From a virus, in IMG/VR virus record IMGVR_UViG_3300037189_012662, positions 1 to 64,000 of that record: DNA of 64,000 bases; one strand, written 5' to 3'. The position numbers were made by a program, and so were the translations under genes. Under the pieces are notes generated by a model. The model saw nothing but the letters and a program-made list of their open reading frames with translations, was not told the origin of the DNA and made no database searches. This document shows, piece after piece, positions 8,526-18,920 of this stretch; the first letter of the stretch is position 1, and each line of letters opens with the position of its first letter.

Positions 8526-8702
8526 CTATTTGTCTGTGCTGTAAAATCCGCTACCCTTAAAGGTAACTCCTAAAGAAGAGTATACCCTACTATAGTCAAT
8601 ATTGCAAGCTAAACATTTAGGAATTTCTTCCTTGTCAGCAATGCCTCTAGAGATTGTTATAGAGGCATCGCAAAGCTTACACTTATACTCGTAAGTTGCC
8701 AT
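8526..8702 (-). CDS. FmdB-like zinc ribbon protein
   Basis: A 58-residue protein starting at 8702, where the ATG overlaps the preceding stop as TAATG. It has CKLC (residues 8-11) and CLAC (30-33), then GVTFKGSGFYSTD, the typical end of FmdB-type zinc ribbons. These are presumed regulatory or nucleic-acid-binding. The gene fills the gap between the lysin at 8702 and the DUF7455-like gene. Confidence 0.8.
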   Translation of the reverse strand: MATYEYKCKLCDASITISRGIADKEEIPKCLACNIDYSRVYSSLGVTFKGSGFYSTDK

Positions 8703-18034: not shown

Positions 18035-18063
18035 ATTGTACTCCTATGTGCTTAAAATGTCAA
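18035..18063 (-). promoter_or_regulatory. Promoter TTGACA-N17-TACAAT, leaderless geometry
   Basis: TTGACA (18058-18063) and TACAAT (18035-18040) are 17 bases apart and overlap the 3' end of the hydrolase gene. The -10 ends six bases before the ATG at 18028, so the mRNA should have essentially no leader. The downstream ataaccATG is identical to that at 1042-1050. Confidence 0.75.
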
Positions 18064-18574
18064 CTGTTCCAGAACAAGTTGGTGAAAATTTTATTGCAGT
18101 TTTAACTGCTGCCTCTACCCTACTTTCTGGGGAACTCTTGGCCATTGATGTTGCAGACAAATGCCCCATAGCAAATGCCGAACCACTGCCAATACACGTA
18201 AATGGAGAAGAAAATTCGTTTAAGGACATGTCAGAGGCATTATGCTCATATAGCTTATCTCTAATCCCTATTAGTAATGACAGCTCTGAATCTCTTGATG
18301 TATCTACCCACCACTCATCATAAAAATCCTTAAGATATCGCATAAATTTAGTATTCATAAAAATATCTAGATCTTCGTCTGGATGTGGTTTTGGTGGATC
18401 GAAAGAGTAGGTTAGTCGTTGTCCGTCCATACTTCCAGCAAACCCAATTATGTATGGGCCAACTGTCTTGACTTTTGGCTTTGATAGGTGTAGGATTGTG
18501 TCATCAGTAGAGGCTCCACGCTCCCCTGCCATATATACCTTGCCATTGGCCTTTAGGGCAGCTATACAGGTCAT
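18044..18574 (-). CDS. Proteasome-beta/HslV-like Ntn hydrolase
   Basis: A 176-residue protein. After removal of Met1 the N-terminal residue is Thr (MTCIAAL). Counting from that Thr, E17 (AGERGAS) and K33 (SKPKVKTVGPYIIGFAGS) occupy the positions of proteasomal D17 and K33, and the GFAGS strand-loop is typical of beta subunits. CIGSGSAFAMG is the conserved glycine-rich segment before helix H2. It is shorter than bacterial 20S beta subunits, close to HslV. Target unknown; assembly with host proteasome components is possible. Its ribosome binding site is inside a long inverted repeat (18580-18630). Confidence 0.78.
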   Translation of the reverse strand: MTCIAALKANGKVYMAGERGASTDDTILHLSKPKVKTVGPYIIGFAGSMDGQRLTYSFDPPKPHPDEDLDIFMNTKFMRYLKDFYDEWWVDTSRDSELSLLIGIRDKLYEHNASDMSLNEFSSPFTCIGSGSAFAMGHLSATSMAKSSPESRVEAAVKTAIKFSPTCSGTVDILST

Positions 18575-18579
18575 AAGAA

Positions 18580-18630
18580 AGTCCCCTCTAGATTTAGTGT
18601 ATTATCATTATACACGACCCAGAGGGGACT
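18580..18630 (-). promoter_or_regulatory. Two-tier hairpin that can hide the ribosome binding site
   Basis: AGTCCCCTCT and AGAGGGGACT are a perfect 10-bp outer stem (18621-18630 with 18580-18589). Inside it GTGTAT (18610-18615) pairs with ATACAC (18597-18602). The 3' arm AGAGGGGA is the Shine-Dalgarno of the gene starting at 18574, eight bases before the ATG. In mRNA reading through from the holin-like gene the site would be sequestered. Confidence 0.7.
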
Positions 18631-18635
18631 GTCAA
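18607..18635 (-). promoter_or_regulatory. Consensus sigma70-type promoter, TTGACA-N17-TATAAT
   Basis: TTGACA at 18630-18635 and TATAAT at 18607-18612, both perfect, 17 bases apart. The predicted start near 18600 lies inside the hairpin, so mRNA from this promoter lacks the 5' arm of the outer stem and exposes the ribosome binding site of the proteasome-like gene. Confidence 0.88.
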
Positions 18636-18653
18636 GGGGTTGGGCTAAGTCAA

Positions 18654-18920
18654 TTACTTAGAGTTTTTGTCTACCTTTGAAAAGGCATCGTTGATCTCTT
18701 GCATGGTTAGCTTTCCATCTTCTAGGAATGCCCTGGCTAGCTTTTCAACTACTGTCGCAACACCCAAAATACCTGCCATAAATACAGCTGATATTAGGTC
18801 AATTCCAACAACGGCTCCAGCACCTAGAACTGATAGTCCAGATGCTGCAAATACAGCCAGTATTCTCCAGAATACATTCTTTAATGTAGCAAGCCCTCCT
18901 GCTACTCCCTGTTCGTCCAT
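18654..18920 (-). CDS. Holin-like membrane protein
   Basis: An 88-residue protein with two hydrophobic segments (about 15-35, NVFWRILAVFAASGLSVLGA, and 40-60, IDLISAVFMAGILGVATVV) and a charged C-terminus (KLTMQEINDAFSKVDKNSK). AAAGGAG precedes the ATG. Size and topology suit an actinophage holin; a second holin-like gene is at 3890. Which one works in lysis cannot be decided. Confidence 0.6.
   Translation of the reverse strand: MDEQGVAGGLATLKNVFWRILAVFAASGLSVLGAGAVVGIDLISAVFMAGILGVATVVEKLARAFLEDGKLTMQEINDAFSKVDKNSK

Follow-up and report, generated by a model that had tools for sequence, protein, structure and literature searches.

Bacteriophage T4 provides the textbook case of a translation lock that depends on the start site of transcription. 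According to two reviews of T4, hiding of the ribosome binding site in the leaders of the T4 genes e, soc, 49 and I-TevI depends on the promoter (PMC3014915, PMC2988022). The locus described here would resemble these leaders in that a long RNA hides the site, RNA started at a promoter just upstream is devoid of the stem's 5' strand and is translated, and related phages conserve the arrangement. However, unlike in T4, the 5' arm is here the -35/-10 spacer of a host-consensus promoter, a T-run follows the arm, and the element keeps its upstream neighbor but varies in the gene that comes next. Additionally, the promoter at this locus is TTGACA-N17-TATAAT and not the T4 late promoter (TATAAATA, gp55). 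We thus consider that the element works like the T4 leaders, but we do not count it among the T4 late set.

Three other systems are comparable. The SAS/ESAS of cluster K mycobacteriophages and cluster EF Microbacterium phages (PMC3203893, PMC7302621) likewise combine, in actinophages, an inverted repeat with a ribosome binding site of unusual type; they are described as near-identical copies at many genes per genome, with 17-bp repeats upstream of the SAS and spacers of mostly 4-13 bp. In contrast, our element has one strong copy in the window (the whole stretch of DNA analyzed, bases 1-64000 of a virus record, G000, of 94,811 bases in total), its arm is itself the binding site, and its arms covary. 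The element is also similar to intrinsic terminators, since most copies have a G+C-rich stem followed by a T-run, but it differs from them by a long loop containing the promoter and, in the window copy, by a short, interrupted U-tract and a low score. Finally, recycling of polymerase after termination has been reported for E. coli in a single-molecule study (PMC6978380). By analogy, a terminator near a promoter could let the terminated polymerase restart, which we raise here as an idea only. Searches of the openly licensed literature revealed no account of a phage promoter set within a stem that is terminator-like and hides a binding site, which is weak evidence of absence.

The features of the locus are the following, in the direction of transcription:

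18654..18920, minus strand: upstream gene, encoding an 88-aa small membrane protein by hydropathy (holin-like by look only)
18574..18635, minus strand: whole element, a promoter nested in a hairpin, reaching the base before or at the start codon
18630..18635, minus strand: -35 hexamer TTGACA, from the sequence
18617..18630, minus strand: 5' arm AGTCCCCTCTGGGT, with a core of 10 Watson-Crick pairs (18630-18621), then G-U rich
18597..18615, minus strand: inner stem GTGTAT (18615-18610) / ATACAC (18602-18597) of the predicted fold, enclosing the -10
18607..18612, minus strand: -10 hexamer TATAAT, in the loop, from the sequence
18600, minus strand: predicted transcription start, about 7 nt past the -10
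18580..18593, minus strand: 3' arm ATCTAGAGGGGACT, containing the Shine-Dalgarno GAGGGG (18588-18583)
18575..18580, minus strand: U-rich tail TTTCTT after the G-run, a weak U-tract, from sequence and family comparison
18044..18574, minus strand: downstream gene, encoding a 176-aa proteasome/HslV-like hydrolase

The hydrolase matched Pfam Proteasome at 24.3 bits (cut-off, 22.4) and PHROG 1040, the peptidase HslV family. The 88-aa membrane protein had no match in Pfam; its gene matched PHROG 26427, whose label of nuclease looks doubtful, as it fits a short hydrophobic protein poorly. The only named relative of this gene is DSL-LC01, which was assembled from a metagenome and has Actinomycetia as its predicted host (PMC10611076). 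The named phages nearest in DNA polymerase are Streptomyces phages (56.7%), and a search for hydrolase relatives in genome_contigs (host by homology) gave none that was confirmed.

On the minus strand, TTGACA (18635-18630) and TATAAT (18612-18607) are separated by 17 nt and match the consensus at 12 of 12 bases, as pointed out in a preliminary description of this DNA. Exact TTGACA-N17-TATAAT occurs twice in the window, compared to 0.04 expected from dinucleotide shuffles (0 of 100 shuffles held two), and all seven window matches with at most one mismatch lie on the minus strand, which also carries most of the genes here. AGTCCCCTCT (18630-18621) and AGAGGGGACT (18589-18580), the outer arms, complement each other perfectly over 10 bp. 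AGAGGGGACT is the ribosome binding site of the hydrolase gene, so that the preliminary description was correct in assigning this role to the 3' arm, and the promoter spacer is the 5' arm. The same description had placed the promoter inside the perfect 10-bp repeat. This holds for the spacer and the -10, whereas the -35 only touches the repeat, its last base being the first base of the 5' arm; the nested parts are therefore the spacer, the -10 and the predicted start. As RNA, the stem comprises 14 pairs counting G-U, plus the inner stem of 6 pairs in the predicted fold.

No exact copy of either arm is present in the rest of the window. A search of Rfam 15 with 18450-18750 gave only a chance match, to mir-384 (16.3 bits; gathering score, 72). 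Our model of the element (R1), which includes the window copy, matched 18574-18635 at 66.3 bits (E 8.4e-17) as the sole strong match of the window. Because the arms are found exactly only in this element and R1 gives one strong match, we rejected a SAS/ESAS-like repeat. The second exact promoter of the window (131-103, minus strand) is without a G+C-rich stem, and its gene lies beyond the window end. Another promoter, TTGACA-N17-TACAAT (18063-18035, minus strand), precedes a 65-aa gene whose start codon is 6 nt past the -10; its spacer holds AGGAG, so that its own RNA would be leaderless and read-through RNA would carry a Shine-Dalgarno.

We then folded both forms of the transcript. The read-through RNA reached -31.9 kcal/mol (z -4.1), with an equally good fold in 0 of 200 shuffles. 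In the RNA from 18600 onward, the stem was absent and the fold was no better than in shuffles (z +0.5), as anticipated for a transcript that starts past the 5' arm, with the -10 in the loop. In read-through RNA, the hydrolase binding site had a predicted unpaired probability of 0.0001, the lowest among 47 window ORFs (second lowest, 0.065; median, 0.42). The set was restricted to ORFs that encode 100 aa or more and have a Shine-Dalgarno-like motif, and probably includes some that are not genes. The predictions that read-through RNA would hide the binding site and that RNA from the internal promoter would escape the stem are thus in good agreement with our folding data and, for the former, with the covariation reported below.

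Similar results were obtained for the 78 flanks with a promoter and a G-rich arm, folded and scored for termination with a script that misplaced the arm in two of them (L209 and L261). The median unpaired probability of the site was 0.000 in read-through RNA compared to 0.43 in nested-promoter RNA, and the site was more unpaired in the latter in 78 of 78 flanks. It was below 0.1 in read-through RNA in 76 of 78 flanks and above 0.5 in nested-promoter RNA in only 28. Such predicted occlusion is what one would expect if the element were a translation lock only, as in T4 e, soc and I-TevI, with a T-rich spacer that has no role in termination. We regard this explanation as possible, though the less probable one, in view of the data on termination presented below.

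To see whether the stem is maintained in relatives, we built an alignment (A3) of 69 rows, 68 of them distinct; since the rows were picked for their stem (score of at least 18) and nine of 77 were excluded by hand, pairing is favored in the values that follow. In the 14-pair stem, 93.3% of the cells pair, compared to 83.0% in shuffles. Two-sided changes were found at 11 of the 14 pairs, in 126 cells compared to 37.5 in shuffles, although the copies are related and such counts do not represent independent events. The covariation score was reached in 0 of 500 shuffles, and it dropped from 0.524 to at most 0.23 when partners were slid by 1-3 columns. The outermost and innermost pairs contributed nothing: the former (6/59) showed no two-sided change, and the latter was unpaired in 24 of the 61 rows with letters. 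We also used parsimony with a tree based on the protein of the upstream gene, a weak tree covering 61 of the 69 rows with about 85 residues. It gave 74 two-sided changes that keep pairing, compared to 6-17 when partners were slid, and 51 changes that break or restore pairing, compared to 83-129. Wobble cells comprised 178 G-U and 24 A-C; as A-C cells pair only in RNA of the opposite strand, the excess of G-U indicates that it is the sense RNA that pairs. Overall, the comparison shows that pairing of the stem is maintained by selection in the relatives, in RNA of the sense strand.

These data also bear on two explanations that need no RNA structure. The palindrome could be a DNA operator bound by a regulator over the promoter, and the symmetric arms on either side of the start site would fit such a site. 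However, the half-sites are not conserved: the 68 distinct rows hold 41 distinct core arm pairs, changes are compensatory, loop length varies, and the G-U cells are a signature of sense-strand RNA. This makes an operator very improbable. Even less credible is chance or inheritance, by which the arm would be kept only as a binding site and the spacer only as a promoter. It is true that the 3' arm is a binding site and that the 5' arm sits in a promoter, but promoter spacers need no fixed sequence, yet this spacer changes in step with the arm, and in another clade the relatives have a promoter but no stem. We thus rejected both on the basis of the compensatory changes and the G-U strand bias.

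To determine which gene the element belongs to, we analyzed the loci of the upstream and downstream genes separately. A scan with the 88-aa protein gave 437 loci, of which 80 were kept; from the collected loci we took every distinct 3' flank of this gene, 81 in total, without selecting for a stem. A stem score of at least 22 was reached in 71 of these 81 flanks, compared to 3.1% of shuffles, and 69 of the 71 had a -10-like hexamer in the loop. According to a script, the 3' arm served the next open start as its binding site in 73 of 81 flanks; L208, in which the script had picked another stem, was added by eye. This coincidence, too, is in favor of a lock. The element was absent from flank L197 and, by eye, from L188, and 6 of the 81 flanks (L186, L187, L191, L207, L209 and L212) kept the stem off the binding site of the next gene. 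Contig L192 ends inside the loop of the element, perhaps because of an assembly break at the stem.

The genes behind the promoter-in-stem encode the hydrolase, a 123-129-aa family, a 56-65-aa family (whose member in the window is the gene following the hydrolase), a 156-aa protein or a 246-aa protein. L115 has an insertion of a 246-aa gene after the membrane-protein gene; here the element precedes the inserted gene, and the hydrolase that comes next is without it. This insertion, together with the several unrelated next genes, indicates that the element belongs to the junction and not to the hydrolase. We therefore rejected a hydrolase-specific element, and with it the view of the preliminary description that the device serves to keep this hydrolase off, since the element goes with the 3' end of its upstream neighbor. 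The timing proposed there, with no hydrolase made before the internal promoter fires, is putative. The T4 e/soc logic invoked there stands in part. Hiding that depends on the transcription start is predicted here as well, and T4 mechanics would apply at the junction. However, the promoter is a perfect host-type consensus and not a phage late promoter, and the upstream unit, which contains ribonucleotide reductase genes (NrdE, NrdF) and the genes for a 589-aa repeat-rich protein and the 88-aa membrane protein, cannot be called late. Hence, delay of a late gene, as in T4, would be no more than a possibility here.

The same association was seen among promoters. A stem (score of at least 22) from the spacer to the downstream region was present at 78 of 482 distinct strong promoters compared to 1.8 expected, in a sample that is not random since the loci had been fetched for relatedness. 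At a score of at least 18, there were 89 such promoters, 77 at the membrane-protein junction and 12 elsewhere, compared to 12.4 expected by chance.

For the hydrolase, we obtained 35 loci by scanning IMG/VR and, with a profile, 355 relatives, 80 of which were kept. The 61 distinct leaders compared were of two kinds. Behind a gene of the 88-aa family (36 leaders), the binding-site region was unpaired with a probability of at most 0.218, and below 0.1 in 32 of them. Behind a CHAP-type gene (18 leaders; the CHAP domain was identified in L138), this probability was 0.18-0.69, never below 0.1, and the promoter was kept. Of the three leaders behind another membrane gene, two were below 0.1; the leader of L115, behind the inserted gene, was at 0.43, and one of three leaders of unassigned class was below 0.1. 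Because lock and class of upstream gene are split by clade, common descent alone could explain their link. The pattern TTGACAGYCCCCTCT was found in 68 stretches of viral contigs; where a promoter and a matching arm are both present, a relative of the hydrolase comes next. The flags of L055 and L057 were due to a loose rule only, and most other stretches are unrelated. In L128 upstream of 2501 and similar CHAP-type leaders, the spacer CCAAAAATCTTTTGG is a small inverted repeat of its own, extending up to the -10 and not joined to the ribosome binding site. Close to where the hydrolase gene ends, L183 (about 3005) and L253 (about 3313) have a promoter with the stem CCTTTAGGA/TCCTAAAGG, whose score is near chance.

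We also looked for signs of transcription termination. A T-run of at least 3 followed the arm in 68 of 73 flanks. In 46 elements, the spacers between binding site and start were composed of 60% T and 5.5% A, compared to 27% T and 38% A at 644 other genes, a set that includes two stem-bearing or stem-remnant hydrolase leaders (L120, L172); a spacer T-run of at least 3 was found in 42 of the 46 elements versus 62 of the 644 other genes. Such T-rich, A-poor spacers are unexplained by a translation lock alone, except that some of the T's lengthen the stem, and neither does a lock account for the 6 of 81 flanks with the stem off the binding site. Among these, L191 and L207 have six T's after the stem, with the next start away from the arm; L207 has also lost the -35 and has a new, separate promoter further on. 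In L212, the stem with TTTTATTTT is likewise followed by a separate promoter. Stems and T-runs kept without overlap of a binding site indicate that the stem is worth keeping where nothing is locked. The separate promoters of L207 and L212 end 6-7 nt before the ATG, and the RNA of the next gene is probably leaderless.

Together with the T-run, the stems that cover no binding site point to a transcription-stopping part, which goes beyond the preliminary description; judged by sequence, the element family probably terminates transcription. One may then ask whether the element is an intrinsic terminator first, the overlap with promoter and binding site being an economy of space and the lock unimportant. 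The G+C-rich stem, the frequent T-run and the stems without binding-site overlap, including that of L212 with its T-run and separate promoter, are all in favor of this. However, at about 30 nt the loop is longer than expected of a terminator, a form of the d'Aubenton-Carafa score was above 0 in only 10 of 78 flanks, and a 3' arm that so regularly serves as the binding site (73 of 81 flanks) would be needless. We thus find a terminator with an unimportant lock unlikely. In the window copy, a stable G+C-rich stem is followed by the short interrupted U-tract TTTCTT and the terminator score is -48, so that its own termination may be weak or nil. This score, as well as the stem of L261, which covers binding site and start codon without a T-run, is better in line with a lock only.

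We therefore favor, with a probability of roughly 0.7, an operon-junction insulator of about 60 nt that combines a read-through lock, probably a partial terminator, and a nested promoter. A polymerase coming from the upstream gene would copy the 5' arm, and the nascent RNA would fold into the long stem. In this read-through RNA, the binding site would be locked and the transcript would probably in part be ended. A polymerase starting inside the stem-loop would begin past the 5' arm, so that neither the lock nor the stop signal would form, and the next gene would be translated from the nested-promoter RNA. That the promoter fires, that translation is blocked and that transcription stops at the element is what we infer from the features of sequence and comparison given above. 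In this reading, a T4-like logic would take the form of a conserved junction element of an uncultured phage group, with lock, promoter and probably stop signal overlaid within some 60 nt. Such an element might be used as a small insulator, and it would tell how phage genomes read in one direction separate adjacent operons without spacer DNA. A further version of the insulator, with three functions in one, is improbable. Transcription would stop in the T-run, RNA that slipped through would be locked, and the polymerase that had just released its RNA would restart at the promoter, which lies some tens of bases behind. If true, the next operon would always be read from a fresh 5' end, and the element would be a portable operon boundary across the uncultured phage group, whatever the gene behind it.

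Finally, we searched for the element elsewhere. The best match of R1 had an E value below 5e-6 in 18 of the 22 records on which it was run. Best values were 0.07 in G006, 3.7e-5 in G016 and 0.48 in G017 (CHAP-type or distant hydrolase leaders), and R1 gave no match on DSL-LC01. Folding of low-score matches revealed no nested stem in G006, G016, G017, L284, L285, L286 and L295. A second, different copy was found in the record of the window, outside the window itself, at 72468 on the minus strand. It consists of TTGCAA-N17-TATAAT with the stem AAAATCTCCTA/TAGGAGATTTT-ATT-ATG, behind an fn3 gene and before a 219-aa gene, and corresponds to about 8568-8623 (minus strand) of locus L296. Among the 179 starts of this record that were tested, two scored at least 24, with none expected. 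The stem was joined to the binding site in only 3 of 57 distinct leaders of relatives of the 219-aa gene, the nearest ones (L306, L307 and L308), which suggests that this second copy is young or easily lost.

Two other arrangements were observed in passing. L061 (minus strand, index 54 and 4310) and L071, unrelated small contigs, carry TTGACAGCCCCCTCTGGCACAGTTATATACTTGTTCTAACTGTGCCAG, in which a -10-like site lies between perfect 11-bp arms and which is present at both ends of L061. In L095, L096 and L103, which belong to another phage group, TTGACAGTCCCCTCTACCCCTGATAGGTTCAGGGGTGGAGGG forms a long stem over a possible promoter and is followed by a separate Shine-Dalgarno.
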